Part shown: piece after piece, positions 31,813 to 55,285 of the stretch
Layout: every line of letters begins with the position of its first letter
Numbering within the stretch: position 1 is the first letter of the stretch
DNA from: Actinomycetes bacterium
GTDB taxonomy: Bacteria; Actinomycetota; Actinomycetes; S36-B12
Direction: 5' to 3'
Assembly: GCA_024639145.1 (NCBI GenBank)
Contig: JAHEIZ010000003.1
Span: 62,001-126,000 of the forward strand
DNA: 64,000 nucleotides
The notes under the pieces: generated by a model
Databases searched by the model: none
What the model was told of the DNA's origin: nothing
The model's input: only the letters and a program-made list of their open reading frames with translations
Program-made: the position numbers and the translations under genes

Positions 31813-33484
31813 GGCGGAACAGCCCCTTCTTTCGCGATCCCGAGACAAGTTCGAGCTCACCTTGTTCCTCGACTTCAACGGAGAGGGGCAACTCGACAGG
31901 CTCCGGCGCGTTTGCGTGGACACCGCCGGCCATTCCACTGCCGGCTGGTTTCGGACTGCTCACCTCGAACTCGACGAGCCCACGCCCGGGAAGGCAGGTG
32001 CGCGCGAGCTCGTTGTAGGCAGGACCGATGAGGGGATGGTCGAGAAGTGTCTGCATTCGGTGGAGATTGGTGGCCGTCAGAACATCCTTGGTGGCAAGCG
32101 GGATCACGCCGACGACAGGAACCCCGAGCCCGGCGGCCAGGATCTGCTCGCGCTGCATGCCGACACCGGCGACGCTCTGGTTGACGATGATGCCGATCTT
32201 GTCGCGGCTGATTCCCAGGCCGGACTCCTCGGCCGGTGCGGTGATCTCGCGAAGCGCGCGCGCCATGCCCTGAACGGCAGTGCTGGCGAGCGTGGTGATG
32301 AACAGCACCTCGGTTGCCTCCGGAAGGCAGACCTTCGCGATCAGAGGATCCAGGTACTGCACGGAGGTATCCATGACGACAACATCGAACATCCGCTGCA
32401 GGCTTCGAATGATCGTTCGGTAGAACTCAGGCCCGACAGTGTCTGCCGTGCGCGGACGAATCGGCGCAAGAAGCGCGTGAACTCCGAGTGCCTCCTCGAA
32501 CACCAGGTGACGGCGAATCGTGAGCTCATCCCACACCGGCTGGACGCGAATGTTGAGGGCAGTCGGCATGTACTTGCCGATCAGCGAGGCAACCTGACCA
32601 TCACGGGTGTCCATGTCGACGACGCAGACACTCAGCGGCTTGCCGCCCTCCTTCGATGCTCGAGCAATCGAGGCGGCAAGAAGCAGCGCTGCCGTCGATT
32701 TGCCCGAGCCGCCCTTGCTCGACGTCACAGTGATAGTCACCTGGCCGGGAAGCGGCGGTCGGGCGAGCAACTCCTGCGAAGCACCCGAAGTACTGCTCCC
32801 CATGGGTGCGTCAACCGCCGGCTGCTGCCCGATTCCTAGATGGGGCATCGCGGGTGAGGACGGAGACGGGTCCGCGGTGGCGGCGGGAGCGCCGGCCGAC
32901 GGGGGCGCGGTGGAGGCAGAGGCGTGCGCGGCCTCGCTGAGTCCGGGAATACCGGCAAGATCGGGATCGATGCTTGCAGGCACGGCGTCCATCTGGGCCT
33001 CGGCAGCGACCAGAGGGTCCTCAGGCCATTCGATCTCGGAGTCGAGCACCGCGCGCATGCACTCCAGCGCTTCGCGCTCACCTTTTTCCATCGGCATGAA
33101 GTGGACCTTGATCGACTCGGGTGCCACGCCGATCGCGAGAGCTTCGCGATCAATTTGTGCTCTCAGCGCCTCGAGCTCGGTCGAGTGCCAGATCGCCACG
33201 AAGACGTGCGCCTTCGCATTCGCCATCGCGACGATGGCTCGTGCTGTCTGCTCACGTTCGTCATGCGAGGTCGCGTCGCCACGATGAAGGGAATCCGAGA
33301 AGACCAGGATGCGCGAGTGCGCATCCAGGATGCCGCCCGAGAGCGAGGACCACATCTGCGCGACGCTGCCTTGGCGCTCTTGTACGCGCCAGACAACACC
33401 GGAGGCGTTGAGCAGCGCGCTCACCTCGGGTTCGGCCACGACGATGACGCCCGGCCCGTCTGACATTGTCATGTGATCACTCAT
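31805..33484 (-). CDS. CpaE/TadZ-like P-loop ATPase
   Basis: A 559-residue protein. A receiver-like N-terminal domain (residues 1-160) and a Pro/Ala linker precede a ParA/MinD-type ATPase with the deviant Walker A SSKGGSGKST near residue 265, CVVDMDTRDG and MFDVVVMDTSVQ. A C-terminal tail of about 90 residues ends in GLFRRV. CpaE/TadZ proteins place pilus machines at the pole or membrane. It is embedded in an operon of overlapping genes in the pilus locus, where it may position the machine. Confidence 0.82.
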   Translation of the reverse strand: MSDHMTMSDGPGVIVVAEPEVSALLNASGVVWRVQERQGSVAQMWSSLSGGILDAHSRILVFSDSLHRGDATSHDEREQTARAIVAMANAKAHVFVAIWHSTELEALRAQIDREALAIGVAPESIKVHFMPMEKGEREALECMRAVLDSEIEWPEDPLVAAEAQMDAVPASIDPDLAGIPGLSEAAHASASTAPPSAGAPAATADPSPSSPAMPHLGIGQQPAVDAPMGSSTSGASQELLARPPLPGQVTITVTSSKGGSGKSTAALLLAASIARASKEGGKPLSVCVVDMDTRDGQVASLIGKYMPTALNIRVQPVWDELTIRRHLVFEEALGVHALLAPIRPRTADTVGPEFYRTIIRSLQRMFDVVVMDTSVQYLDPLIAKVCLPEATEVLFITTLASTAVQGMARALREITAPAEESGLGISRDKIGIIVNQSVAGVGMQREQILAAGLGVPVVGVIPLATKDVLTATNLHRMQTLLDHPLIGPAYNELARTCLPGRGLVEFEVSSPKPAGSGMAGGVHANAPEPVELPLSVEVEEQGELELVSGSRKKGLFRRV

Positions 33485-33930
33485 CGCACACCCTCGGAGG
33501 AAGTAGCCGTGCTCTTGCGCCCAAAACGTCGAGTGGCCTTCGCCTCGAGGCGTGGGCCGTTCAGGATGAAGTCGGTCTTCGGGTCGAGCATGCGCACCGG
33601 CACGACAGCCTCGGCAAGAGCCGCGACCTGTTCGAAAGTCGAGCGTGCGACGATGCGCGGCGCCGCGGCATGCTCGGCTAGAGCACTATTGATGTCGGCA
33701 TGCATTTCCGCCACCACCTCGGGTGCATCAGCCATGACTTCGGGGATGGCACTCACGTCATCCGGAAGCGATGACGAACCGACTTCGTCAAGACCGTCGA
33801 CTGTGAACAACTGATCGAGGCGATCGAAGGCGGTGGCGCCGAACACCGAGTTGGTCGGCTTGCCCTGCTCGGGGTGATCGCCGTCGACGAAGAAGGCAAT
33901 TCCGTCAGGATCCTTCACCACCTCACTCAC
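33481..33930 (-). CDS. Unknown protein, pilus operon E
   Basis: A 149-residue soluble protein with a basic tail (GPRLEAKATRRFGRK). The GTG at 33930 has GAAGG upstream and overlaps the stop of the preceding gene by eight bases; the first 94 residues of the track ORF are a shadow of that gene. Its stop overlaps the ATPase start by four bases. No family was recognised. Confidence 0.6.
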   Translation of the reverse strand: MSEVVKDPDGIAFFVDGDHPEQGKPTNSVFGATAFDRLDQLFTVDGLDEVGSSSLPDDVSAIPEVMADAPEVVAEMHADINSALAEHAAAPRIVARSTFEQVAALAEAVVPVRMLDPKTDFILNGPRLEAKATRRFGRKSTATSSEGVR

Positions 33931-34396
33931 CGCCTTCGAGTGACCACTGGGCAGGAATGAGATCCGGAATGGCATTCGCATGCTCGCGCATCGAGACCAG
34001 TTCGACGAGGATGCCCCGGGTGTCGAGGGCCAGGTCGAGCGCTTCGATCGGCAGGTCTGCGGGCACGTAGTCATGGCGATGCCATTCGATGGTGAAGCTG
34101 TATGACTCCTCGTCACGAATGGCTTCCATCGCGATCGCGAACATGGGGTCGTCCGTCGCGATGATCGCACTGGCCTGGAACCGAATCGCGGAACTGGCAC
34201 CCACCGCGCCATCGATCAAGATCGCGATGCGATGGAAGGGCGCAGAGGACAGCGTCAGGGAGTCATCAGTGAGCGAATCGGCCCACGGGTGCACCGGGCC
34301 GAGGTCGCCGATCGGGGTTACCGAGAGCACCAGGCCACTGCCGACCCGGCTCAGGTACTGACGGCCCGAGCCGTCGATGTCGATCCACGCCCTCAT
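33923..34396 (-). CDS. Unknown protein, first gene of pilus operon E
   Basis: A 157-residue beta-rich protein starting MRAWIDIDGSGRQYLSRVG. No signal peptide, membrane segment or known motif is visible. GGGGG lies before the ATG. A GCCGATAC box 20 bases upstream and an array of four 30-bp repeats behind it mark a regulated promoter. It begins a four-gene overlapping operon with the CpaE-like ATPase. Confidence 0.65.
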   Translation of the reverse strand: MRAWIDIDGSGRQYLSRVGSGLVLSVTPIGDLGPVHPWADSLTDDSLTLSSAPFHRIAILIDGAVGASSAIRFQASAIIATDDPMFAIAMEAIRDEESYSFTIEWHRHDYVPADLPIEALDLALDTRGILVELVSMREHANAIPDLIPAQWSLEGGE

Positions 34397-34416: not shown

Positions 34417-34424
34417 GTATCGGC
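34417..34424 (-). promoter_or_regulatory. FliA/WhiG-like -10 box GCCGATAC, operon E
   Basis: GCCGATACCCC lies 20 bases before the first ATG of the operon and directly follows the tandem repeat array. Confidence 0.45.
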
Positions 34425-34540
34425 TCGATTGGAGCCGAAGGGTGGGAACGCGGCTCGATTGGAGCCGAAGGGTGGGAACGCGGCTCGATTGGAGCCGAAA
34501 GGTGGGAACGCGGCTCGATTGGAGCCGAAAGGTGGGAAGC
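34421..34540. repeat. Four tandem 30-bp repeats with dyad symmetry
   Basis: Units begin at 34421, 34451, 34481 and 34511 and differ at few positions. Each contains GGCTCGATTGGAGCC, an inverted repeat with 5-bp arms around ATTG-like centres, followed by GAARGGTGGGAA. The array fills the space between pilD and operon E, and its last unit overlaps the putative -10 box. It is open in several frames only because the unit is a multiple of three. Confidence 0.9.
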
Positions 34541-34555
34541 TCGTTCGAATCGCGG

Positions 34556-35356
34556 CTAGAACCCCATGGACCCGAGGTAGGCGTCGGTCATGGGAGCCCC
34601 GGCGAGGACGCCGATAGCGAATCCGCCGATGAGAAAGGGGCCGAAGGGGATGGCGGTGCCCGATCGAGCTCGGCGGGCGAGGAGCAGCCCGATAGCGACC
34701 GCGCCGCCGAGGAGCCACGCGGTCATGAGGCCCACCACTGCCGGACCGACTCCGATCCATCCGAGGATCAGGCCGAGGGAGGGTGCCAGTTTCACGTCCC
34801 CCATGCCCATGCCCCGGCCGCCGGAGAGGAACCAGATTCCGCCAATGGCCAGCAGCCAGCAGCCCGCACCCGCGAGCGCAGGGACACAAGGCCATTCCCC
34901 CGTCACGAGCCCGTCGATGGCCAGGCCCACCACTGCTACGGGGTAAAGGAGGAAGGTGAGTGGATCCGGCAGACGCTTGTGGTCGAGATCGATGACGAAC
35001 AGGGCCACGAGGATCGCTGAGGAAGCGAGAAGCAGCGGGAGAAGCCCGAGAGAGCCTGAGGCGATCGAGTAGGCAGTGAGCCCGCCCCAGATGATTGCCG
35101 TGACGAGTTCGACGATCGGGTATCTCGGAGATATCGGCGCGGAGCATCCTCGACACCTGCCACGGAGCAGCAGCCAGCTGATGAGCGGAATGTTGTCGCG
35201 ATTGGCCAGTTCACCCTCGCAGCGAGGGCACTTCGATCGGGGCGAGATCACGGATTCACCAAGGGGAACGCGGGCAATCACTACGTTCAAGAAAGATCCG
35301 ACCGCTAACCCGAGGAGGGTGAGCAGGCCAACGATGAGGATGCCCGAGGAGTTCAT
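34556..35356 (-). CDS. pilD: Type IV prepilin peptidase PilD
   Basis: A 266-residue membrane peptidase with about eight helices. The zinc-binding CPRC and CRGC pairs lie at residues about 43-72, and the two catalytic aspartates are in FVIDLDHKRLPD and GGRGMGMGDVKLAP. It cleaves prepilin leader peptides and methylates the new N-terminus. It is the last gene of the operon that carries the sigma-like gene. Confidence 0.93.
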   Translation of the reverse strand: MNSSGILIVGLLTLLGLAVGSFLNVVIARVPLGESVISPRSKCPRCEGELANRDNIPLISWLLLRGRCRGCSAPISPRYPIVELVTAIIWGGLTAYSIASGSLGLLPLLLASSAILVALFVIDLDHKRLPDPLTFLLYPVAVVGLAIDGLVTGEWPCVPALAGAGCWLLAIGGIWFLSGGRGMGMGDVKLAPSLGLILGWIGVGPAVVGLMTAWLLGGAVAIGLLLARRARSGTAIPFGPFLIGGFAIGVLAGAPMTDAYLGSMGF

Positions 35357-35374: not shown

Positions 35375-36130
35375 CTAGAGCGACGGCGAGGCGAAGTCCT
35401 CGGGAACGTGCACTCCGTTGACCGACTTTCGCCCGGCAATGCCCACTGCTCCACCGGCGATCAGAGCAGCGGTGATGACGATAGCCTCCGCGCGAGTGAA
35501 GCCACAGGCGCCGGCGATCTCATCAACCGTGTTAATGCCGTCGACGGCGCGCATGAATGCTGCAACCTCTGACGATGCAACGCAAATCTCGGCCTCGGCA
35601 TTGACCTGGCGCAGAACGGTCTCCTTGGTCGTGGATCCAGGAGCAACTCCGTTCCAGATGCGCTGAGATCGCTCCTCGCGTAGATCGATGGCCGAGATGA
35701 GATCCTCGACGGAGGCGGGCATGGTGCAGAGCTGATCGGTCGTCTCATTCGCCTCGGCCTGGACCTTGGACTTCGGGAGCGCGAGCGCCGCCCCGAGGCC
35801 CGCGAGTAAGTACTCGGCATGCAAGGCGGCGAGGGTGTCGACCGGCAGCCAGTCGCGATTGATGGCGAAGCGTCCGACTTCGTGATCTCGCTGCGTGTGC
35901 TCGACGCTCGCACTGAGCTCGCGGATCCGTGACTCGTCGAGGATTCCGGCCGCAATCATGCGGTTGGTGAGGTGCGGGGTGAAATCTTCCACCTGCACGG
36001 AGTACACCCCACCCTCGTACATGTAGATGGCGGCACTCGTGCCGGTCGCCGGATCGGTCGCGACCAGACGGCCTGTCCAGCCCTTCTTCGACTCCGATCT
36101 CATGGCCTTGGCCAACTGTGCGTTCTCCAT
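35375..36130 (-). CDS. DUF4388-like protein of the pilus locus
   Basis: A 251-residue soluble protein. The N-terminal part, GWTGRLVATDPATGTSAAIYMYEGGVYSVQV, resembles DUF4388/PATAN-type modules, and the C-terminal 70 residues look like a winged helix (INTVDEIAGACGFTRAEAIVITAALI). DUF4388 proteins are often linked to gliding and pilus control. The ATG at 36130 lies seven bases after the upstream stop; the track start lies in the previous gene. The domain call is tentative. Confidence 0.55.
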   Translation of the reverse strand: MENAQLAKAMRSESKKGWTGRLVATDPATGTSAAIYMYEGGVYSVQVEDFTPHLTNRMIAAGILDESRIRELSASVEHTQRDHEVGRFAINRDWLPVDTLAALHAEYLLAGLGAALALPKSKVQAEANETTDQLCTMPASVEDLISAIDLREERSQRIWNGVAPGSTTKETVLRQVNAEAEICVASSEVAAFMRAVDGINTVDEIAGACGFTRAEAIVITAALIAGGAVGIAGRKSVNGVHVPEDFASPSL

Positions 36131-36137
36131 GAGTTGT

Positions 36138-36890
36138 TTATCGGATGAGATCGTCGGGCAGGGACACCTCGTGAACCGGGCATCTGGGAGCACCCGCATG
36201 GTCGACAGTGCCCACCATGAAGCCCGGGGTACCCGTGCAGCCGGTCTTGCGCTCGTCCCGGTAGATGCGCGCTATGCCGGAATAGGTGTCGAGATGCACG
36301 ACCTTTGCAGCACGACTTGCCGCCTCGGACTTGTTCACGACTGACGACACGTGCTCAGGAGTGATCTCGAGGATCTGATCACCATCACGAACGCGCCATT
36401 TGTAGTGTTCGAGGCTGAGATCACCCTGCACCTGCTGACTTCCGCCACCCGGCAGCAGCACGGTGATCGTGCATCGCGTACCCAGCAGCGGGGTCGTGTC
36501 GAGGGTCTCACCGGTTGCCAGGATGAAGGTGTTCGCCAGAGTGCCGGCGAATCGGCCGTAGCCCAGACGCACGTCGTAGCACTTACCCACATGCTCGCGA
36601 ATCAAGGCGTCCGCATCTTCGAAACTTGCCGCCATTCCCTCGATGAGCACTCGAGGCATGTCCTGATGGGTCCGCATCAAATCAGCGAGTTCCCACGAAT
36701 AGGAACGGATGGTGCGCTGCCCGGCTGTCCCCTCGTGATCCGAGCCGTGTACCTCGGCACCGGTGATCTTCGCGATGAAGTGCTCGGTAAGCCAGGTCCA
36801 CATCAGGATGCCCGGCGTATCGGAGTAGATCCAGGGAACCGGTTCGAGTGCCTCGGCAGTCATTGAGCGTCTGCTTTCTATCGCGGTCAC
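36138..36890 (-). CDS. Unknown protein, pilus operon D
   Basis: A 250-residue soluble protein without recognised domains. The GTG at 36890 overlaps the stop of the sigma-like gene by four bases; an ATG nine codons later is an alternative start. A central segment, LTEHFIAKITGAEVHGSDHEGT, and a C-terminal part with two cysteines (TGCTGTPGF, RCPVHE) are visible. Coupling to the sigma-like gene makes a regulatory partner such as an anti-sigma or sensor worth testing, but there is no direct evidence. Confidence 0.6.
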   Translation of the reverse strand: MTAIESRRSMTAEALEPVPWIYSDTPGILMWTWLTEHFIAKITGAEVHGSDHEGTAGQRTIRSYSWELADLMRTHQDMPRVLIEGMAASFEDADALIREHVGKCYDVRLGYGRFAGTLANTFILATGETLDTTPLLGTRCTITVLLPGGGSQQVQGDLSLEHYKWRVRDGDQILEITPEHVSSVVNKSEAASRAAKVVHLDTYSGIARIYRDERKTGCTGTPGFMVGTVDHAGAPRCPVHEVSLPDDLIR

Positions 36891-38047
36891 AGGATTCCCG
36901 CTGCACCGACCTGGGTCACTACGCGCTGGACAGCAGCGGCGGCCGTCTTGGGGAGTACGCCCAGCTCGGCAGCGAGCTCCTGCCGGCTCAGTTCACCCCA
37001 GAAGCTCAGGTAGACGGCTGCCAGTGCCATCGGATCGGCTGGTGACGTGCCGCGCGTTGAGGCGGGGCTCATGACCGAGTCGATGATGGCCTTGGTGAGC
37101 ATCGCATCAAGCTGAAAGCTCGTGCTGTCATCCGCCACGTCAATGGTGTCGGCAGCGTCGACGCCCTCCGACTCCTCCCCCATGCTCCCGCTGACTATCG
37201 AGTCGTAGTTGCGCATACCGGCGACCTCGGCCACCGCGATCTCGCGCTTGCGCAGGTCACCGACCGTGGTCTTCATACGATCAGCGAGTTCAGACTCAGT
37301 CGGACGACGATGCAGCGTGGCCATGGACTCATCAATGGCATGGTTGAGATGCATGTGATCGTCGATCAGCGTGCGACCCCAGGCGGCACGGGCAGCATCC
37401 TGTGGCCACTTGCGCAGTTTCCCGAGCATGAACGAGGCGAAGTTGAGCGTGCCATTGCGACCGATGCGATCTGCATCGAAGCGATCGGCATGATCCGAGA
37501 TGAAGAGGTACATCATCGACCTGGTGTCATCGTCATCGATCAATTCGAGATCGGCGACGAGCTTGCGGCGAATCGCGTATGTGCGTGGATAGAGCCAGTC
37601 AGTGGTGACAAGCAGGAGCTGCCCGAGGAGATCGCCGGGAATCGAGTCGACATCACGGAAGGGAACCGATGCCTCGACACGCATGTTCATGACCTCGAGG
37701 CCGTGATCATCACACCACTGGCGAATCAGCTTGCGCGCCTGCTGACCTTCGCCCTCATTCACCCAGATACGGCTCTGGCCGTCACTCCATGCACGGGTGC
37801 GCGTCTCGAGCGGAAGGTCGGCCATCAGGGCCGAAAGATTCATCTGCCCGGTCGTGCTCCAGTGAACCCGATCGCACACCATGGCCGGTGCCATCGCAAG
37901 AATGTCGCGTTCCGTGAGATCACCGACCACCATGTCAGGGATGCGGCGGCCCAGACGATGGGTTGCCGTGACGATGGAATCCTCGCCGAGCGCAATCGAC
38001 TCGGAGAGATCGTGCTCGGTGTCGAGGCCGACCGTGATGGCGGACAT
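36887..38047 (-). CDS. Divergent sigma-70-like factor in the pilus locus
   Basis: A 386-residue protein. Residues about 165-215 resemble sigma region 2 (SDHADRFDADRIGRNGTL, then FASFMLGKLRKW), residues 230-280 region 3 (HRRPTESELADRMKTTVGDL) and residues 340-380 region 4 (LSFWGELSRQELAAELGVLP, a helix-turn-helix). The first 160 residues are an extra domain not seen in standard sigma factors. The ATG at 38047 lies one base after the upstream stop; the track start is 43 codons too early. The layout is nearest to FliA/WhiG-type factors, and FliA-like -10 boxes precede the pilus operons. The call is from pattern, not alignment. Confidence 0.6.
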   Translation of the reverse strand: MSAITVGLDTEHDLSESIALGEDSIVTATHRLGRRIPDMVVGDLTERDILAMAPAMVCDRVHWSTTGQMNLSALMADLPLETRTRAWSDGQSRIWVNEGEGQQARKLIRQWCDDHGLEVMNMRVEASVPFRDVDSIPGDLLGQLLLVTTDWLYPRTYAIRRKLVADLELIDDDDTRSMMYLFISDHADRFDADRIGRNGTLNFASFMLGKLRKWPQDAARAAWGRTLIDDHMHLNHAIDESMATLHRRPTESELADRMKTTVGDLRKREIAVAEVAGMRNYDSIVSGSMGEESEGVDAADTIDVADDSTSFQLDAMLTKAIIDSVMSPASTRGTSPADPMALAAVYLSFWGELSRQELAAELGVLPKTAAAAVQRVVTQVGAAGIL

Positions 38048-38048
38048 A

Positions 38049-38459
38049 TCAGGCGTGTCCGGCCAGGACGCACATGGCGCGTGCGAGGGTGTCGGGCTCC
38101 TGCTCGACCCGTGTGCCAATACGTGCGTCGACAGAGTCAGGATCAGGAAGTGACGTGAAGGCGGGGTCGTAGGCACTTAGCTCATCGATCAGGCGTGCGA
38201 CCATTCCCACGGCGAGGCGGGCGGCCGGAGCCCCGGCAGTGATGTCGCTGGTCGTGCCGACGGTCACCGCGAGGGTGACGACGACGCGATTCGCCTCGGA
38301 CCCGACCCCGACAATGCGCACGGGGGCCTCATGGGAGAGCGCGATGACCCCGGCAATCGCAGCAGCAGCAGCGGGAACGCAGGCCCGAGTGGGAGCGACC
38401 CGAAGGCCCACCTCCACGACCCGCTGCAGACCAGCGGTGCCCTCAACCCACTCACGCAT
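38049..38459 (-). CDS. Unknown protein, first gene of pilus operon D
   Basis: A 136-residue protein, Ala/Val-rich, with the pattern of an Asp23/Gls24-like or ACT-like small alpha-beta domain (GLQRVVEVGLRVAPTRA, then NRVVVTLAVTVGTTSD), but I do not recognise a family. AAGGAG precedes the ATG. It starts the operon encoding the sigma-like factor, two unknown proteins and PilD. Confidence 0.6.
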   Translation of the reverse strand: MREWVEGTAGLQRVVEVGLRVAPTRACVPAAAAAIAGVIALSHEAPVRIVGVGSEANRVVVTLAVTVGTTSDITAGAPAARLAVGMVARLIDELSAYDPAFTSLPDPDSVDARIGTRVEQEPDTLARAMCVLAGHA

Positions 38460-38512: not shown

Positions 38513-38520
38513 GTATCGGA
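38513..38520 (-). promoter_or_regulatory. FliA/WhiG-like -10 box TCCGATAC, operon D
   Basis: TCCGATACCCACC lies 53 bases before the first ATG of the operon that encodes the sigma-like protein itself, which suggests autoregulation. Confidence 0.4.
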
Positions 38521-38596
38521 TCGGTTCCGCTGTGGAGTAGACCAAATTTCTAGTTTTTTGTCCCCAGTTACCTGGGCGGGACGTCCCCTCCCACGC

Positions 38597-38645: not shown

Positions 38646-39077
38646 CTAGTTCAGGGTCAGGCCGGTGGCGCACGTGGTGACAGGGGTCGCGGTCGAGGAG
38701 AGACCGCCTGCGCCCGAGTCGTAGGTGTACGACTGCAGGGATTCCACGTTGCACCCGGTGATCGTGTAAGCCGATGCGCCGTTCATGGTGATCGAGACGC
38801 CATTGCCCGGTGAGAGCTTGAGCGAGATCGGCAGGCTCGTCAGGTCAGTGGCAATGGTGGGGTACGCATTGTTCTGCGTGTAGAAGGTCTCCATCTGCTT
38901 GGCCGTGGTGTCGATATCCGACTTCACGCCTGCATCACGTGCGCTGTTGCGCTGGTTGAGGAAGACCGGGATGGCGATAGCGGCAAGGATGCCGATGATT
39001 GCCACGACGACCAGAAGTTCGATGAGGGTGAACCCGGCGTCGCGCTTCTCCTTGAGTTCTTGGAAGCGAACCAACAT
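38646..39077 (-). CDS. pilA: Major type IV pilin (PilA-like)
   Basis: A 143-residue prepilin. The leader ends in RDAG and the mature protein starts FTLIELLVVVAIIGILAAIAIPVF, with the Glu at position 5. The helix is followed by a short beta domain with two cysteines (GCNVES and TTCATG) that may form the C-terminal loop disulphide. AGGAGA precedes the ATG. It stands alone between pilC and a strong terminator, which suits high independent expression. Confidence 0.93.
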   Translation of the reverse strand: MLVRFQELKEKRDAGFTLIELLVVVAIIGILAAIAIPVFLNQRNSARDAGVKSDIDTTAKQMETFYTQNNAYPTIATDLTSLPISLKLSPGNGVSITMNGASAYTITGCNVESLQSYTYDSGAGGLSSTATPVTTCATGLTLN

Positions 39078-39139
39078 TGTGTTCTCCTGTAACTAGGACC
39101 CCGGTGGGGTGCACCCTCAGTGCGGGGGTTGCACTATGT

Positions 39140-39147
39140 GTTTCGGA
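39140..39147 (-). promoter_or_regulatory. FliA-like box TCCGAAAC upstream of pilA
   Basis: TCCGAAACAC lies 62 bases before the pilin start and is close to the GCCGAAACAC upstream of pilT2. Confidence 0.3.
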
Positions 39148-39187
39148 CCGTTTCGGGTTTCGTGCCCGTCCGATCGCACTTTTTTCG

Positions 39188-43471: not shown

Positions 43472-44601
43472 CGTGTCCTCCCGGCGGTATACCCGGCGCG
43501 CTTGAGTGCCACGTGCAGATCGGAGACCTGCCCAATGACTCCCTCGGCGTCGGCAAGGCTGATCTCGCCACCGAGCACGAGCCGCACGAGGTCTTGTTCC
43601 AGGGTGCGCATCCCGTAGTACTCACCCTCGGCGATGATCTCGCTGAGCATGATGGTCTTCTCGGGATCACTGATCGCATCGCGCACTCGGCCATTGCTGG
43701 CGAGGACTTCCACCACCGGCAGACGCCCCTCATGTCGTTGCGCCGCAACGAGTCTTTGGCAGACGACTCCCATGAGCGACTCAGCCAGGGCGGCTCGCGC
43801 CTGGCGCTGCTCGCCGGCCGGGAACATGTCAATCATTCGATTGACGGCATCCACGGCGCTCTTGGCATGCAGGCTGGCAAGCACGAGGTGGCCCGTCTCC
43901 GAGGCCTGCAGTGCCGTACGCAGGGTTTCGAGATCGCGAATCTCGCCCACGAGTATGACGTCAGGATCCTGCCGCATACCCGAGCGCAGAGCGGTGGCGA
44001 AATCCTCGGTGTCGGTGTGAATCTCGCGCTGGCTCACTGTCGAGAGTTGATCTCGATGCAGGAACTCGATCGGATCCTCGATAGTGAGGATGTGGCACCG
44101 ACGGCTGCGGTTGACCAGGTCAATGAGCGAGGCAAGTGTCGTGGTCTTGCCCGAGCCGGTGGGACCGGCCACGACGACCAGCCCGGCCTGAAGGCTCGCG
44201 AATTCGGTGACAATCGAGGGAAGCCCGAGTTCCTCGATCGTGGGAACGTGCTCACGCACGTGACGCAGCACCATGCTCGCAGTTCCGCGCGTGCGATAGG
44301 CATTTCCGCGGAAGCGGCCGATGCCATCGACCTGCAGGGCGAAATCGCATTCCTGGTGCTCGAGGAATTCCTCGCGGTCCCGAGGAAGAGTCAGGGCATC
44401 GAGCACGAGCGCCTCGGCGTCGTCATTGGTCAGGGCCGGATGATCGACAGGATGCAGGCGCCCCGAGATGCGCAGGAGCGGAGGTCCGCCGACCCGGATG
44501 TGCAGGTCGGATGCCCCCTGGTCGACCGCAAGTCGCAGCAGGGCAACGAGGGCCTGCGGACCGATCACCGCGGTCGCCTCCTGAAGGCCTGACTGACTCA
44601 T
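43468..44601 (-). CDS. Second PilT-type ATPase (PilT2/PilU-like)
   Basis: A 377-residue PilT paralogue of standard length. GASDLHIRVG, Walker A GPTGSGKTTTLAS, EDPIEFLHRDQLSTVSQRE, GEIRDLETLRTAL and HLVLASLHAKSAV are visible. It differs clearly from the other PilT in the window. It heads the pilT2-pilB-pilT-pilC operon. There is no Shine-Dalgarno sequence; the ATG lies seven bases after GCCGAAAC. Confidence 0.9.
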   Translation of the reverse strand: MSQSGLQEATAVIGPQALVALLRLAVDQGASDLHIRVGGPPLLRISGRLHPVDHPALTNDDAEALVLDALTLPRDREEFLEHQECDFALQVDGIGRFRGNAYRTRGTASMVLRHVREHVPTIEELGLPSIVTEFASLQAGLVVVAGPTGSGKTTTLASLIDLVNRSRRCHILTIEDPIEFLHRDQLSTVSQREIHTDTEDFATALRSGMRQDPDVILVGEIRDLETLRTALQASETGHLVLASLHAKSAVDAVNRMIDMFPAGEQRQARAALAESLMGVVCQRLVAAQRHEGRLPVVEVLASNGRVRDAISDPEKTIMLSEIIAEGEYYGMRTLEQDLVRLVLGGEISLADAEGVIGQVSDLHVALKRAGYTAGRTR

Positions 44602-44608
44602 ATGAGGT

Positions 44609-44616
44609 GTTTCGGC
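44609..44616 (-). promoter_or_regulatory. FliA-like -10 box GCCGAAAC, operon B
   Basis: GCCGAAAC-ACCTCAT-ATG. The seven-base distance to the start mirrors the pilM promoter and suggests a leaderless message. Confidence 0.4.
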
Positions 44617-44643
44617 TCAAGGCGGCCCGCCGGGCACGGATGA

Positions 44644-44651
44644 GCCGATAA
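44644..44651 (+). promoter_or_regulatory. FliA-like -10 box GCCGATAA, pilMNO
   Basis: GCCGATAA is identical to the FliA/WhiG -10 consensus and lies seven bases before the GTG of pilM. I see no TAAA -35 at the usual distance. Confidence 0.5.
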
Positions 44652-48174: not shown

Positions 48175-50391
48175 TCAGGTGATCGTGATCGTGAGGTTCT
48201 GCGCCGCACGACTACCGTCGGGCTTGGTGACGATGTATTCGATGACTGTCTGCCCGACCGTCGAGGGCGCGAGGAATGAGATCTGGTTACCCACCACGGA
48301 CGCCGTACCGACACCTGCCTTGATTGCGGCACCCGTCAACTTGTTTCCGGCGATGTCATTAGCGAGCACGTTGTAGGTGCGCGTAGTCGAGCGCGCCTGC
48401 GTTCCCGAGTCAGCGACGAGCCCTGCGAGGGCAACCGGATCACGACGAATGCTCGTCTCGGAATACGCCTTCACCTTCCAAGGCTCATTGGAGAGCTCGA
48501 GCATGTACGGAGGAGGATCCTCCACCATGTATCGCTGGTCGTACTGATAGAACTTCTGGTACGCCGCTCCTCCGCCGCTGACGCCGACGGGGCACCGATA
48601 CTTCTGCCCGAGTGAGCCTCGCAGGTAAATGCCGCCCATATTCGACCCGTGCGTGGCGTCCTGCGAACCGAAGCACTGCGTGAGCACCACCGCCGCGAAG
48701 TTGTAGATCACGTTCTTGTTCTTCTGCCAGTTCCAGTCGGCGGTCTCGTTCGCAGAAGTGGTGTTCGCGTCAAGCGGGCGATACGCATACAGGAAGCGGT
48801 AGGGCACGAGACCAAGCATGTTGTTCGAGGTGAGCGGCGGCACCCCGTAATCCGCCGCTGCGGTGTTCGTCTTATTCGTATCGCTGGAGTCGATGACCGG
48901 ACCGGTAAGGGCGATGTCGTGCTCGGTCGCGATCGTGACTGCACCAGTGAACTCGCCCTGGACGAACACGTCACCCGCATCGCAGTCGTACCACCCCGGA
49001 TCGCTGCCGAACTTTTCTGAGGGGAATCCCTTCTTGCCCGTATACGAGGAGTTGAAGAGTTCCGTCTGCTCGGCGGCGGCCGGAATGATGAATGGGTAGC
49101 TATTCACGTTGGTCGCGTTCTTCTTCAGGCACGCCGCCGAGGTGCCGGCGACCCAACGGTTGGCGTCACCCACGGGCGGACTGAGGGTGCCCTGCACGTA
49201 GACGACTCCGTTGAAGCCAGCCGCCTTCATCGCACCGAGATCCAAGGTGATAGTCGGCTGCACGGCAGGTGTCGCGGGATTCGCATACAAGGACGTACCG
49301 CCGCACATGCTCGTGGTGGCGCGAGTCGACGGACTCGTCACGGCCATCGTGCCGTCAGCACGGAATCGAATTCGGGTGGGCCCGGTGAAGACGCAGCCCT
49401 TATCCATCGCGAGTTCGCGCATGCGGCTGTTCGATGCGGGAATCTCGAGCACGGTGTCATAGGTCGGATTCCAGAGCTTGCCGGTCTGGCTTCCGCTGAG
49501 TTCGGTGGCCTTGTAGGTGGTTCCGGACCCCCAGGCACCGCTCGTGTTCGAGCTCACGTCACTCGTATTGATCCATCGCATGCCCTCCGGGCAGCCGGCC
49601 ACGCCTGTCGTCACCGGTGGGCACGATGTCGTGATGGCACCGTCGAATACGGCCGTGGAGTTTCCGCCGGTCGACAGCGGATCAATATTCGGGATTGCGC
49701 TCGACAGGTACCAGACGTCATTGGTGTGAATTCGACCCTTGATGCGCTCGGTGTTGTAGATGCCCGCCCACCGGCAGAAGTTTGAGTTTCGGTGAATGCC
49801 ATTGAGCGGGCTGGTGCCGGTCTTGCTCACCTGCCCGGCGGCAGCCCACCGTCGATTCGTGCACAGTTCGGCCGCGACTGTCGGATCGGCATAGGCACCC
49901 GGAAGGCTGGGAGCCATCGACTCGATGTCGCTGATATAGACGTAGTCGAGGGTCGAGCGCTTGGTCAGCACGGCCTCGACCGTGCGCGTGACACCGTCAA
50001 CTTTGCCGGTCGAGGAGATCCGAAGCTCACCCGCGACAAGGGCGCGACTCGTGTCGATCGAGTACGTGAACTGCCCCTGACCTGCTCCGCCCGGAACATC
50101 AGCCCAGCCGGTCAATGCGGGATTCGACGAGTCAGGCGCGCGCAGGAAGTAGCGATTGTCGACGAGCAGCCGGGCGCGATAGTCATCAACGCCCGCCTCT
50201 GCGGCGGCCTGCGCGGCAAAGGATTTCTCGCTCCTGTCGGACGGACGCACAGCATTGATCGTGGCCTGCGCCAGAACCAGCGAGAGTGCCACGAGAGCCA
50301 TGCACCCGATGATCACGATGATCAGGGCCGAGCCATCATCCGGACTCGCAGCGGTGCGGTGGCGCATTCGCCCGAGGACACGACTCATCAT
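48175..50391 (-). CDS. Large PilX-like minor pilin / tip adhesin
   Basis: A 738-residue protein, several times the length of usual PilX. A short leader (SPDDG) is followed by a pilin-like helix SALIIVIIGCMALVALSLVL that lacks the usual Glu at position 5. A long cysteine-containing beta-rich region of about 580 residues follows. The last 80 residues, RTYNVLANDIAGNKLTG to the end, look like a cadherin-like/Ig-like domain. The first ATG of ATGATG at 50391 overlaps the pilW stop. It probably sits at the pilus tip. Confidence 0.75.
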   Translation of the reverse strand: MMSRVLGRMRHRTAASPDDGSALIIVIIGCMALVALSLVLAQATINAVRPSDRSEKSFAAQAAAEAGVDDYRARLLVDNRYFLRAPDSSNPALTGWADVPGGAGQGQFTYSIDTSRALVAGELRISSTGKVDGVTRTVEAVLTKRSTLDYVYISDIESMAPSLPGAYADPTVAAELCTNRRWAAAGQVSKTGTSPLNGIHRNSNFCRWAGIYNTERIKGRIHTNDVWYLSSAIPNIDPLSTGGNSTAVFDGAITTSCPPVTTGVAGCPEGMRWINTSDVSSNTSGAWGSGTTYKATELSGSQTGKLWNPTYDTVLEIPASNSRMRELAMDKGCVFTGPTRIRFRADGTMAVTSPSTRATTSMCGGTSLYANPATPAVQPTITLDLGAMKAAGFNGVVYVQGTLSPPVGDANRWVAGTSAACLKKNATNVNSYPFIIPAAAEQTELFNSSYTGKKGFPSEKFGSDPGWYDCDAGDVFVQGEFTGAVTIATEHDIALTGPVIDSSDTNKTNTAAADYGVPPLTSNNMLGLVPYRFLYAYRPLDANTTSANETADWNWQKNKNVIYNFAAVVLTQCFGSQDATHGSNMGGIYLRGSLGQKYRCPVGVSGGGAAYQKFYQYDQRYMVEDPPPYMLELSNEPWKVKAYSETSIRRDPVALAGLVADSGTQARSTTRTYNVLANDIAGNKLTGAAIKAGVGTASVVGNQISFLAPSTVGQTVIEYIVTKPDGSRAAQNLTITIT

Positions 50392-51098
50392 GACTGTCCG
50401 TTCGCGAGGATGACCTTCTGCGCCACGGACTGTGTCGCGGAAGTACCCCCGATGGTGAACTGCACGGCACGAAGCGTGGCAATCTGCGCTGCCGTGAGGG
50501 TGCCGTTGACGGGGGGGACGAGCTCGACCATCGGCGGGGAAGGAATACCTGCCGTGGGCGTTCCGGCCTTGAAGTACCTCACGCTCAGAGTCGGCGTATT
50601 GGTCGTGCTCACCGGCACGAGCAGTCGCGTCGTGCACGTGGTATCCGCCGGCAGAGCGCGGCAGCCGTTGTTCACCGCCGCCGTGTAGATCGGGCGTCCG
50701 GTCGTCATGTCAGGTGCCCACGTCGACGTGACGATGCCCTTCGCCGTCTTGGTCAGGGTGACCTTGTACGGAACTCGATCGGCCTTGCCGGCACCCGCGA
50801 AGGTGTAGAAGGTCACCACGGGCTGACCAGCCACGGTGCCTGCGTAGTCGAATGAGGGCACGATCGGCGAGTTCGCATAGGGGTTGTCGGCATACCGAAT
50901 GAGGCGGGATATCCATTCGGATGCGTTCTGCTGCTCCTGCTGCACGGAATTGCGGCCAGTGGTGTCACGAATACTGCGCACGCCACTGATCATGAAGATC
51001 GACGTGAGGATCATCAGCAGGCTGAAAATGCCCATCGCCACGATCAATTCGATCAGCGTGATTCCGTCGTCCTTGCCGTTCATGACGTCATGGCTCAT
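50388..51098 (-). CDS. PilW-like minor prepilin
   Basis: A 236-residue prepilin with the leader end KDDG, mature ITLIELIVAMGIFSLLMILTSIF with Glu5, and a beta-rich C-terminal domain with a cysteine pair (NGCRALPADTTC). It overlaps pilV and pilX-like genes by four bases each. Minor pilins of this kind prime pilus assembly. Confidence 0.85.
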   Translation of the reverse strand: MSHDVMNGKDDGITLIELIVAMGIFSLLMILTSIFMISGVRSIRDTTGRNSVQQEQQNASEWISRLIRYADNPYANSPIVPSFDYAGTVAGQPVVTFYTFAGAGKADRVPYKVTLTKTAKGIVTSTWAPDMTTGRPIYTAAVNNGCRALPADTTCTTRLLVPVSTTNTPTLSVRYFKAGTPTAGIPSPPMVELVPPVNGTLTAAQIATLRAVQFTIGGTSATQSVAQKVILANGQS

Positions 51099-52501
51099 GG
51101 CGTGCCACTTCCCGAGGGCGTAGCGGTCGGCGTCGGCGAGGGAGTCGGGATATCAAGGTTTGCAATCGGGAAACTCACCGTCACGCGAGCGCCCTTGGGA
51201 TCAGTCGGAATTCCCGTAGGAGTCGGAGTAGGAGTGGGAGTCGGTGATGCCGACGGGCTCGCCGAAGCGACAGGGGCGGGTTCAAGCGTGACGACCTGGT
51301 TGGCCCCGGGCGCGGCAGCGGAAGTCAGAGTCCACTTGCCGTAGGGAAGCTCGACCCGAAGGACGCCCGTGGAATCCGTCGAGCCAAGGTCATACGTCGG
51401 TGGCGTCTTGCAGGGGCCCGTGGCTTCGGCGGCCGGCGTGGCGCGCACGAGTGCGTTCGCCGGCAACCCGCGCACGCGCACCGTCACTGCGTTCACAGGC
51501 GCAACGGTCTTGGCTCCCGGCGTCACCGCGTACCAGGTGCGATTGATCGCCGTGGTTCGCGGAGCCGCGAAGCTCGCTGGGTCAGCGGCGATGCACGTAC
51601 CGAGCCACGCCTGGTAGCCGCCGACCGATGGCCACAGGCTGCTGACGGTCTTGGGATATGCCGTGACCGCGACCGGGGAAATTGCCAGGGGGTCGAGTCC
51701 CATCGAGAGTGGAATCCCGGCCGGAATCGGGAAGTCGGTCGTGGAAGACGTGAATTCCATCGATGACGCGGCGGCGTACTCGAATGACATGCGCGTTGTC
51801 TGCGCGGCCACGACGGCGCTCGTGATGGTGGTGCCGTTCACGATTCGCGGAACGTATCCGCCGCGATTGACCGTGACCTGCCAGGACGCACTCGGAGCGA
51901 GCTTCGGAACGAAGACGCAGCCATCAGGGCCGGTGATGAATGTCGACGTGGCACCGGCCGCCGCCACATCACGCACCTGCAGTGTCACGCCGCTGACGGG
52001 GTTCGCGCGCTCATCTGCGACCTTGATCGCGAGCTGTCCGGTGTCGATGAGCGAGGAGTCATCACCCGGCGCAATGATCGTGTCGCTCACCTGCGGGTCG
52101 GAGATCGTCGCGCCGGAGACTTCCACGTGCACGCGCATGTAAGCCTGGCCTGGTGCGGCAGCCTCGCACGCGTCGGTTGCCTGATTCAGTCCGACCCAAT
52201 TGCTCGTGGTCGAGATCGTGAACACACCCTCGGGTGTCGTAGTCGTGCTCGTCGTGTTTCCGATGGTGATGAAGTCCGTCCCGAGCTCTCGCTGCCGCTC
52301 GATCTCCGAGCGGGCCAGGTTCGAGGCGTAGACCCGATCGGAGTTCTCGCGCACGGTGCGAATCGCGGTGATGAGGATGCCGACTGTCGCCGTGGCCGTG
52401 AGGGCAAAGACCAAGGTCGCGACAAGGATCTCGACGAGTGTGAATCCCTCGTCACCTGACGGCGCGCCCTGCCGCTCGAGGTCGGCCCTGCTCCCGTTCA
52501 C
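51095..52501 (-). CDS. PilV-like minor prepilin with a carboxypeptidase-regulatory-like domain
   Basis: A 468-residue prepilin. The leader ends GDEG and the mature part starts FTLVEILVATLVFALTATAT. Around residues 160-250 a CarboxypepD-reg-like domain is seen (IKVADERANPVSGVTLQVRD). The C-terminus has a PTPTPTPT stretch and a second Pro/Ser-rich tail. The GTG at 52501 with GGAGGG six bases upstream is the start, 87 codons inside the track ORF. It leads the pilV-W-X operon. Confidence 0.82.
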   Translation of the reverse strand: MNGSRADLERQGAPSGDEGFTLVEILVATLVFALTATATVGILITAIRTVRENSDRVYASNLARSEIERQRELGTDFITIGNTTSTTTTPEGVFTISTTSNWVGLNQATDACEAAAPGQAYMRVHVEVSGATISDPQVSDTIIAPGDDSSLIDTGQLAIKVADERANPVSGVTLQVRDVAAAGATSTFITGPDGCVFVPKLAPSASWQVTVNRGGYVPRIVNGTTITSAVVAAQTTRMSFEYAAASSMEFTSSTTDFPIPAGIPLSMGLDPLAISPVAVTAYPKTVSSLWPSVGGYQAWLGTCIAADPASFAAPRTTAINRTWYAVTPGAKTVAPVNAVTVRVRGLPANALVRATPAAEATGPCKTPPTYDLGSTDSTGVLRVELPYGKWTLTSAAAPGANQVVTLEPAPVASASPSASPTPTPTPTPTGIPTDPKGARVTVSFPIANLDIPTPSPTPTATPSGSGTP

Positions 52502-52547
52502 CGAACTCCCTCCGCGCACGCAGATATCGGGGAATCTCCCCAGAGGG

Positions 52548-52555
52548 GTATCGGC
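52548..52555 (-). promoter_or_regulatory. FliA/WhiG-like -10 box GCCGATAC, pilV operon
   Basis: GCCGATACCCCT lies 46 bases before the pilV GTG. Its core is identical to the box of operon E. Confidence 0.45.
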
Positions 52556-52666
52556 TGAGGCCCGCGTGGAAGGTCGGCTGCCGGGCTGCAATTCCGACCC
52601 ATATGTCGCATTTATCCGACACGGGTGTGGCGGGTGGGGTGATGGCCAGGGACAGCACAGGCGAGG

Positions 52667-52672
52667 TACCGT
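52667..52672 (+). promoter_or_regulatory. -10 hexamer TACCGT for a leaderless gene
   Basis: TACCGT is followed by six bases and the ATG at 52679. This is a housekeeping-type element, unlike the FliA-like boxes of the pilus operons. Confidence 0.5.
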
Positions 52673-52678
52673 CAGTCC

Positions 52679-55285
52679 ATGGCTTCCCCTGCCGGCCCGC
52701 TTCGGGCTGCCGGTCGCTGGCTCGCGCCCGCCACCAGCGGCTCCGACCAGGCCACCTGTCACCTGCGCATCGGCGTGGTCGGCGTGGTCTTCGCCGGACT
52801 CTGGGCAGCCGCGATCATCGCCGCCTTTGGCTTCATGTACTCCGATATCGGCAACGAGATTCCCGGTCCGGATGTCCTGCTCGCCGGCATCGTCCTCGTG
52901 GCGATCAGCGTGTTCACCCCGCAGGCTCTGTTCCGCACCGGCACTGAGTCATCGACCAAGCGCATCCTGGCTTCGCCCACGCGTCCCATCGCACCGTGGA
53001 GTACGAGCACGATCTCGTTCAACGCGATCCTGGTCGGCGCCATGCTGGCGGGACTGTATGCGGAGCCTGTCATCGCCTTCCTGCTATTCAGCCTCGCCTA
53101 CGTGATCCGCATGGCCGTGCTCACTCGACGCGACGCGGTGCGGGATCCCAATTCGCGTTTCCACCAGCTCACCTCGGCATTCAGCGCGATGCTCATCGCT
53201 TCCATCGCGTACTCGATCGTGCGCCCCCTCGCTTCCGCGGTCACGCTGAACTTCTCCGTCATTCCCTTGCTACTCGCCGGGATCGTGGCCTTGTATCTCG
53301 GTCTCATCCTCAACGCGGTGGATCGCTGGGCGCGGTGCGAACGACACGGATGGGCCGCAGCACGCGACCTCATTGACGTACGACGGCTGCTCGTCGCCGC
53401 GGTCAGTGCCGCAATCGCCTGGATCGTCGCAATGACAGGGGAAATCCTGCCTCGCATCGACGGCGACCCCACCGGCACGGCGCTTCCTGCTCTCGCTGCT
53501 CTCGGCGTATTTCTCGCGTGCTGGCTGCTCCTCTGGGCTCTCTCGATCAGCATCTGGCGCACTGAGGCCAAGCGCACTCTCTCACTCTGGCGCAGCCAGC
53601 AATCCGTGATTCTCACTCGACTCTCCGAAGGCTCGCTCGATCCTGATCTCGCCGCGAAGGCGGCACTGAACATCACGAGTCGGATGGCTGCAGTTGTCTT
53701 CGGCGCGACTCGAGTGCTGACCATTCACGACGACGGAGATGGCTCGATCAGTCAAAGCCTGGTGCGCACTGATATCTACCCGGGCTCCCCCGAGACCCTC
53801 CCTGTCACCCCCGCCGGACGTTCAGGAATGCGCATCCCACTGAGCGTGGACAATCGCACGACAAGCAGCGTGACGATCAGCGACTGCCTGCTGCCCGGAC
53901 GCTTCCTCATGCGCTCGCGGTCACTGGTCGATGAGTTCAGCGAACTTGCGACCATTGGCCTGCTGTCACCGGAGCTGAGCCGGGGCGCGGACCGAAATGC
54001 GATTGCCTTTGCTTCCATGTTCGAGGGCAGCTGGCCGAACATGAACGCGCTGGATCAGGCCATGCTGAGCATGCGCGAGCGATTCGATCGCGCCCCGCAC
54101 CTTTCCTCTCTCATTGTCGGCGTCTACGCGATCAATGAGATCGCCGCACTGGCCGGCGGGCGACATGAGCATGCGGCCGTGTCGCACGTCATGCGCTCGA
54201 CCCTCTCTTCCCCCCTGTTCAACGGAACCGACGTCTTCGTGGCGTACGAGAGCCCCGGTCGCGTCTGGGTGGCGGTGAGCGGCGGTCCGATCATCCGCAA
54301 CACGATTCAGCTGCTTCGCGACCTGCAGGATTCCCTCAACTCCTTCGGCCGCGCAGCTTCGAGCGCAACCGATCTCGAGGTGTTCGTGAGCGTCTCATTT
54401 GGCTACGCGGCACACCAGGTCGACGACCTGTCGCCCGAAGGCTTGATCCAGACCGCTCGAGATCGCCTCGCCGCCGACCAGTCCGCGCGCAATCCGCTCT
54501 CCGACCCCGACTTCAGCACCCTGGAGCTCACACCGGAACTCTTCACTCGTACCGAGCCGACTCCCGTGACCGTCGACAGCCTGCTGGATGGCATGACGCG
54601 GGATCGGGGCACCGATGCCTTCATCACTGAGTCGCTACCTCTGCTCTCCACGGCCACTGGCGCGCACGAGGGGACACTGATCAGCGTCGGATGGGTGCGG
54701 GAATTTCGCTACTTCGACATGCGTGCGCCCGAGAACCTGCTGAAAGCAGTAAACCGCCAGCCGCATCTCGCTGCGCTGGCCGCCGAGATCTCGCTCGATG
54801 CCCTCGTATCCGAGCTTGACACGTCACCCATGTGCATGATTCGCATGCCCTCGGTGCTGCTGCACCCTGAAGCCGGCGAGCTGGCCCTGCCCAACCTGAT
54901 CGTGCCCAAGCTCGATCGCATCCAGTGCCAGCGAACGGTGCTGCTCTTTGACGAAATCCCGGCCGGCGGCGGACAGACCCTGCGCATGCTCGCAGACAGA
55001 GGACTCAATATCGCCGTCACTGCGGCGGCTGCTGCATCCGCGAACTCCGGCGACCTGGCCGGTTGGTCGCGGTGGGCAATCGTGTTCCCGAGTCACGTCA
55101 TGCAAGGCTCGCACGGCGTCGATGCGCTCACGATCTCGCAGACCGCGAGTGCAGGCGCGTCGGCCGGCACACGCCTCATCGGAATGGTGATTGGCTCGAT
55201 TGATGTACGAGCAGCGCAGGCCCAAGGCATCTCAGCCGTGATTGCCACACACGCCCACTCCGCAGAACGAGTAGAGCACTCCTGA
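52679..55285 (+). CDS. Membrane protein with degenerate GGDEF and EAL regions
   Basis: An 868-residue protein. About seven membrane helices occupy residues 28-300, then a linker domain. Residues about 470-600 have the strand order of GGDEF domains (SLIVGVYAINEIAALAGG, FVSVSFGYAAHQ), but the GG(D/E)EF position reads SPGRVWVAVSG. Residues about 640-865 follow an EAL-like order (TVLLFDEIPAGGGQTLRMLA), without the EAL catalytic residues. It is probably a non-catalytic c-di-GMP-type receptor or pseudo-enzyme regulating the adjacent pilus. The fold call is by pattern only. Confidence 0.6.
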   Translation: MASPAGPLRAAGRWLAPATSGSDQATCHLRIGVVGVVFAGLWAAAIIAAFGFMYSDIGNEIPGPDVLLAGIVLVAISVFTPQALFRTGTESSTKRILASPTRPIAPWSTSTISFNAILVGAMLAGLYAEPVIAFLLFSLAYVIRMAVLTRRDAVRDPNSRFHQLTSAFSAMLIASIAYSIVRPLASAVTLNFSVIPLLLAGIVALYLGLILNAVDRWARCERHGWAAARDLIDVRRLLVAAVSAAIAWIVAMTGEILPRIDGDPTGTALPALAALGVFLACWLLLWALSISIWRTEAKRTLSLWRSQQSVILTRLSEGSLDPDLAAKAALNITSRMAAVVFGATRVLTIHDDGDGSISQSLVRTDIYPGSPETLPVTPAGRSGMRIPLSVDNRTTSSVTISDCLLPGRFLMRSRSLVDEFSELATIGLLSPELSRGADRNAIAFASMFEGSWPNMNALDQAMLSMRERFDRAPHLSSLIVGVYAINEIAALAGGRHEHAAVSHVMRSTLSSPLFNGTDVFVAYESPGRVWVAVSGGPIIRNTIQLLRDLQDSLNSFGRAASSATDLEVFVSVSFGYAAHQVDDLSPEGLIQTARDRLAADQSARNPLSDPDFSTLELTPELFTRTEPTPVTVDSLLDGMTRDRGTDAFITESLPLLSTATGAHEGTLISVGWVREFRYFDMRAPENLLKAVNRQPHLAALAAEISLDALVSELDTSPMCMIRMPSVLLHPEAGELALPNLIVPKLDRIQCQRTVLLFDEIPAGGGQTLRMLADRGLNIAVTAAAAASANSGDLAGWSRWAIVFPSHVMQGSHGVDALTISQTASAGASAGTRLIGMVIGSIDVRAAQAQGISAVIATHAHSAERVEHS

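Follow-up and report, generated by a model that had tools for sequence, protein, structure and literature searches.

Is the sigma-like protein encoded inside a type IV pilus operon of this actinobacterium a working sigma factor, and if so, which genes would it serve? The gene was studied within the window, which is the whole stretch of DNA that was analyzed (64,000 nucleotides). The genes of the pilus cluster are given below; apart from pilD and the pilins, the gene names are labels from reading of the sequences.

36887..38047, minus strand: divergent sigma factor gene (386 aa plus stop, ATG start, from the ORF call)
38049..38459, minus strand: small partner gene, 136 aa
36138..36890, minus strand: down1, coupled protein without assigned function, 250 aa, GTG start
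35375..36199, minus strand: ORF of down2, protein without assigned function, probable ATG start at 36130
34556..35356, minus strand: pilD prepilin peptidase (Peptidase_A24 1.6e-11, A24_N_bact 2.5e-33)
38646..39077, minus strand: major pilin (N_methyl 6.2e-10)
33923..34396, minus strand: 157-aa gene (d157)
Start at 33484, minus strand: CpaE/ParA-like ATPase
Starts at 44601, 43471, 41774 and 40471, minus strand: pilT1, pilB, pilT2 and pilC, in that order before the pilin
Start at 44659, plus strand: pilM, with pilN also on the plus strand
48175-52762, minus strand: minor-pilin operon (genes from about 52.5 kb down to 48 kb)

The initial annotation had placed the gene between a small gene and a coupled gene in an operon that ends in pilD, and the ORFs of the window bear this out. 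The stop of the small partner gene lies 1 nt ahead of the sigma gene ATG, the sigma gene stop overlaps the GTG of down1 (36890..36138), and the coupled run continues through down1 and down2 to pilD. Orthologues are 41–80% identical over the full length, so the sigma gene is considered a real gene. Elsewhere in the cluster, the minor-pilin operon encodes a carboxypeptidase-regulatory-like and an Ig-like domain and is possibly a pilus-tip adhesin set.

Homology of the window protein to the sigma70 superfamily is established, based on matches in NCBIfam, among the orthologues, with a family profile and in the PDB. The window protein matched SigF (2.2e-5) and FliA_WhiG (5.6e-5) in NCBIfam, and the Pfam scores of this single sequence were under the cut-off. 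Among 23 orthologues, 18 were matched by FliA_WhiG (best 4.5e-7), 19 by Sigma70_r4_2 (best 7.9e-6) and 12 by Sigma70_r3 (best 3.5e-8). The family profile detected genuine sigma factors in whole genomes across the phylum over positions 157–370, with E-values down to 3e-10, and matched the solved WhiG at 2.6e-4. Sigma regions 2, 3 and 4, which had been read in this order by eye, are above chance by the NCBIfam, Pfam and family-profile searches. The protein is also as far from standard sigma factors as had been proposed: no curated cut-off was passed, and the curated FliA/WhiG model TIGR02479, with a cut-off of 189.6 bits, gave 23 bits here and at most 30 in the related proteins of flagellar loci. 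The layout comprises a ferredoxin-like domain (about residues 33–135), sigma2 (about 140–225), sigma3 (about 227–277) and sigma4 (about 310–382). The N-terminal extension, originally put at 160 residues, measures about 140 aa to helices like those of region 1.2/2.1 and about 157 aa to the region-2.2 match. An ECF (group 4) sigma was considered and rejected, since region 3 is present in the protein and ECF sigmas are without it. An AlphaFold model from a 10-sequence input had a mean pLDDT of 58, and the PDB search with this low-confidence full-length model returned only sigma factors among the top 50 matches (best E 1.6e-5). The structural matches thus did not speak against the sigma fold looked for at the outset, although the sigma2 part was modelled at a pLDDT of only about 40.

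Orthologues were found in 26 of the 166 genomes of the order, every one from the window's own family. The sigma gene was present in 24/26 genomes with the family-type pilB, and the two exceptions are just 61–65% complete. Its pilus operon context is maintained in 12 loci, and the small partner gene lies immediately 5' of the sigma gene in every orthologous locus read. The gene down1 is conserved at the same place in Nanopelagicales-type loci and absent from the nearest relative (L031:1789-1866), which is also without down2 and has pilD directly after the sigma gene. Within the class, a second family has a more distant orthologue (E 2.9e-31), present in 91 of its 99 genomes. All nine loci read in that family show a flagellar operon with the order FlgN-FlgK-FlgL-CsrA-small gene-sigma gene. 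In a tree of the sigma parts, which has a small outgroup set and long branches, the pilus and flagellar lineages form one clade (support 100/100, branch of 2.16 changes per site) that stands apart from FliA, WhiG, SigB and RpoD. This separate, fully supported clade, together with the conserved element with a FliA-like −10 described below, supports the earlier suggestion of a new branch of sigma factors. No relative of the divergent sigma was found in viral contigs, plasmids or PHROGs, so there is no sign of a phage origin.

The residues expected to contact promoter and core polymerase gave a divided answer. Equivalents of FliA D81, R84 and R91 (E. coli FliA numbering), which we take to be the −10 contact residues, are invariant in 61/61 sequences, and regions 2.3–2.4 have W-x2-D-x2-R-x3-G-R in common in both branches. 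In the flagellar branch, region 2.2 (DLGQQ, with D and Q partly kept) is near-canonical; it is strongly altered in the pilus branch (DV.SMMYLF), where S and M occupy the core-contact positions Q406 and E407 of E. coli sigma70; the canonical Q is missing from real WhiG proteins too. In the proposed contact check, the −10 contacts are thus kept, and the core contacts depart from the canonical ones in the pilus branch. In region 4, the LPERE segment at the start is absent, and PKTAAA or RNMNVY stands in place of the recognition helix, which is ESRVSQ in FliA. Kept −10 residues and a replaced −35 helix would fit a promoter whose −10 resembles that of FliA and whose −35 has changed.

The N-terminal domain was modelled separately (residues 33–135, pLDDT 87) as a ferredoxin-like beta-alpha-beta-beta-alpha-beta fold. 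It comes closest in fold to ACT domains, PII-like proteins and microcompartment shell proteins, with no significant match among them. As the PDB gave weak ferredoxin-like matches (best E 0.017), no functional name was assigned to the domain. Comparison of this domain with the small partner by hhalign gave no homology, and the small partner had no match in Pfam, NCBIfam or PHROG. The small genes of the pilus and flagellar loci are homologous to each other (hhalign probability 97, E 8e-11), so the small gene and the sigma gene form a two-gene cassette common to both lineages. The N-terminal domain and the small partner are probably a control device of the sigma, either a gate or an anti-sigma pair. 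The anti-sigma factor RsiG carries the c-di-GMP motif E(X)3S(X)2R(X)3Q(X)3D on a coiled coil. More tentatively, the protein may represent a new class of gated sigma that is turned on or off when its N-terminal domain detects either a small ligand or the small protein encoded next to it, with a cassette that serves a pilus regulon in one family of actinobacteria and a flagellar locus in another while its promoter code is kept; we would give this specific version somewhat less than an even chance.

A promoter-like element precedes the pilus transcription units, with the consensus GG(G/T)YC-N~15-GNCCGAWAC, 7 nt and then a purine start. The sites of the window are as follows.

39140..39148, minus strand: −10-like site GTCCGAAAC, major pilin operon; a conserved leader hairpin has its base at the predicted start, 16 nt further on
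44609..44617, minus strand: −10-like site AGCCGAAAC, pilT1, 7 nt before the ATG
44643..44651, plus strand: −10-like site AGCCGATAA, pilM, 7 nt before the GTG
52548..52556, minus strand: −10-like site AGCCGATAC, minor-pilin operon
34417..34425, minus strand: −10-like site AGCCGATAC, before the 157-aa gene (34396..33923)
38513..38521, minus strand: −10-like site ATCCGATAC, before the small partner and sigma genes
36138..36146, minus strand: −10-like site ATCCGATAA, down2, 7 nt before the probable start

The upstream regions of pilin genes have GGTCCGAAAC in common, and 20 pilin or minor-pilin promoters follow GGTTCA-N15-GTCCGAAAC-N7-G, with an invariant CCGA(A/T)AC core and, at position 16 (the predicted start), an invariant G. 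The −35 GGTTCA at fixed distance scored 81 versus 56 in shuffled sequences (0/1000 shuffles), and the bias was also seen in promoters outside the discovery set (0/2000). The FliA/WhiG-type −35 TAAA was not enriched in this comparison (26 versus 32 shuffled). The core pattern RKCCGAWAM, which was widened once the first sites had been seen, is matched at 9/9 positions in 12/12 pilin promoters and at 8–9 of 9 positions at 29/33 heads of pilT1, pilM and d157; operon-internal genes score 6–7, rarely 8. Only ten RKCCGAWAM sites occur on both strands of the window, seven of them at pilus gene heads. A 30-bp tandem repeat (34421-34538, 3.9 copies, 98% matches) lies between pilD and the 157-aa gene, and its last copy extends into the −10-like site before that gene.

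The distance to the gene starts is also fixed. The gap between element and ATG of pilT1 is exactly 7 nt in 10/10 loci with the site, and the same 7-nt gap was found for pilM and down2 of the window. Because of this gap, the pilT1, pilM and down2 messages would be leaderless, and their start base corresponds to the G that is invariant in pilin promoters. The major pilin message has a conserved 5' leader with two hairpins (39077-39133 of the window, and homologous pilin leaders), which begins at the predicted start base in most genomes; a search of Rfam with this leader gave no known RNA family. The ATCCGATAC-type site ahead of the small partner and sigma genes was present in the window and L039 only, and autoregulation of the sigma gene through it is possible.

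Where the sigma gene is absent from a pilus cluster, so is the element: pilus loci of relatives without the gene contained 6 core sites in 149 kb, with no consistent position, compared with 75 in 323 kb. Across whole genomes, the longer pattern is found just a few times per genome whether the sigma gene is present or absent; a large fraction of the matches falls on the pilus contig in genomes that carry the gene. In a window scan with a held-out matrix, pilus sites ranked 1, 2, 4, 6 and 7, with scores of window sites from 8.3 to 16.5, and random 64-kb sequences reached 18.3. As random sequences score like the window sites on this matrix, weight was given to the position across genomes. The pilin of one pilus locus without the sigma gene (L159, G019) is preceded by a −10 that fits the FliA/WhiG type perfectly, GGCCGATAA.

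In the flagellar lineage, an element of the form GGGTC-N16-TGCCGATA lies downstream of the sigma gene, ahead of orfX-dA, two genes without known function behind this single conserved element (L050:10508-11715 and homologues). Among 91 pattern matches in the 99 genomes, 68 are found on the strand of the sigma gene no more than 5 kb downstream of it, with a single match per genome and identical spacing throughout. The remaining 23 lie elsewhere, mostly with other spacing. The orfX-dA genes are presumably a target of the flagellar-lineage sigma. Thus the pilus and flagellar lineages have in common the gene, its partner and promoter codes that resemble each other; the −10 is like that of FliA, and the −35 has changed.

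The best reading, and the most economical account, is a dedicated pilus sigma. We infer from the sequence comparisons that the divergent sigma binds core polymerase and reads the element. It is likely, in our judgment, that the protein is a working alternative sigma of a new branch beside FliA/WhiG that directs the type IV pilus regulon with core polymerase. The holoenzyme would read GG(G/T)YC, about 15 nt, GNCCGAWAC and 7 nt up to a purine start, and the sigma would probably reinforce its own synthesis, as its own operon lies in the regulon.

The main competitor to a dedicated pilus sigma is a sigma mimic or relic without core binding, acting as an anti-sigma decoy or a DNA-binding regulator, while another sigma reads the pilus promoters. 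The decoy version has a model in PhyR, an ECF-like pseudo-sigma with a receiver domain; the analogy would be possible if core binding was lost, but the window protein has region 3 and no receiver domain was found in it. The strongly changed region 2.2 of the Nanopelagicales-type branch, the missing LPERE segment and the long branch would suit a relic, as would the fact that genus g10 and the flagellar lineage have a real FliA/WhiG gene in the same locus. In g10, a genuine FliA/WhiG-type sigma gene (L051:3166-4054, plus strand) lies in the pilus cluster between the CpaE-like and 157-aa genes, with a weak element copy, AGCCAATAC, upstream. FliA/WhiG, which occurs in g10 and flagellar-lineage genomes alongside the divergent sigma gene, could be an alternative reader of such a −10. 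However, a FliA/WhiG-type sigma is missing from most genomes that have both the sigma gene and the element; in the window genome, the search with the FliA/WhiG model gave SigB- and RpoD-type matches only. The −35 of the element is unlike TAAA, and the flagellar-lineage element adjoins the divergent sigma gene without the spread expected of a FliA regulon. An inert relic is disfavored, as it would not account for the promoter set, the invariant −10 residues and the second lineage, and we regard this explanation as unlikely.

Two further explanations appear very improbable. The element could be the operator of an unrelated activator, with another role for the sigma-like protein; consensus matches alone do not prove promoter use, and the start sites here are predicted. 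Yet the element has two boxes at sigma-like spacing, a fixed 7-nt distance to the start codons of leaderless genes, an invariant start base and a conserved hairpin from the predicted start onward. An ordinary FliA/WhiG orthologue that has drifted would agree with FliA/WhiG as the best profile and with the FliA-like −10, but it is hardly credible given at most 30 bits against a cut-off of 189.6, real WhiG and FliA in the same genomes, the separate clade, the extra domain and the changed −35.

Among known systems, ComX/SigX of streptococci is an alternative sigma that drives a type-IV-pilus-like competence apparatus; it belongs to another sigma lineage, its gene is unlinked, and its promoter differs from that of the window sigma. 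WhiG/FliA (group 3) is similar in its sigma regions 2-3-4, a GCCGATAA-like −10 and control of type IV pilus genes, the last being a predicted assignment for the window sigma. The −10 of the TAAA - GCCGATAA promoter type is close to GNCCGAWAC, whereas its −35 differs from GG(G/T)YC; the targets of the window sigma compared here are likewise predicted. Unlike WhiG/FliA, the window protein has an extra N-terminal domain, a shortened 2.4/3.0 junction and a new region-4 helix, and it is not recovered by curated models. WhiG-RsiG controls type IV pili in Rubrobacter, and in Actinoplanes, WhiG-like sigmas transcribe both pilus and flagella genes (PMC8325347). In contrast to WhiG-RsiG, the small partner gene of the window sigma has no family match. 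SigSsdA of Actinoplanes missouriensis is a SigB/F/G-type sigma with a C-terminal STAS domain and a regulatory partner protein (PMC10733313). The window protein resembles it in having an extra domain and a partner protein, but the domain is ferredoxin-like and N-terminal, on a FliA/WhiG-related sigma. What is new about the window sigma is its branch, N-terminal domain, partner gene and −35 code, as well as its link to the pilus cluster of the Nanopelagicales type.

In genomes that have the sigma gene, the presence of the element before nearly every type IV pilus operon suggests that the sigma is a switch dedicated to turning on pilus production in these aquatic actinobacteria. The whole group would thereby have a candidate for the master switch of its type IV pili. 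The readable promoter code predicts start sites gene by gene, and the sigma70 tree would gain a branch in which the −10 code was kept and the −35 code and the N-terminus were changed. As the two-gene cassette is found in both pilus and flagellar loci, it becomes testable how two surface machines came to recruit a single regulator.
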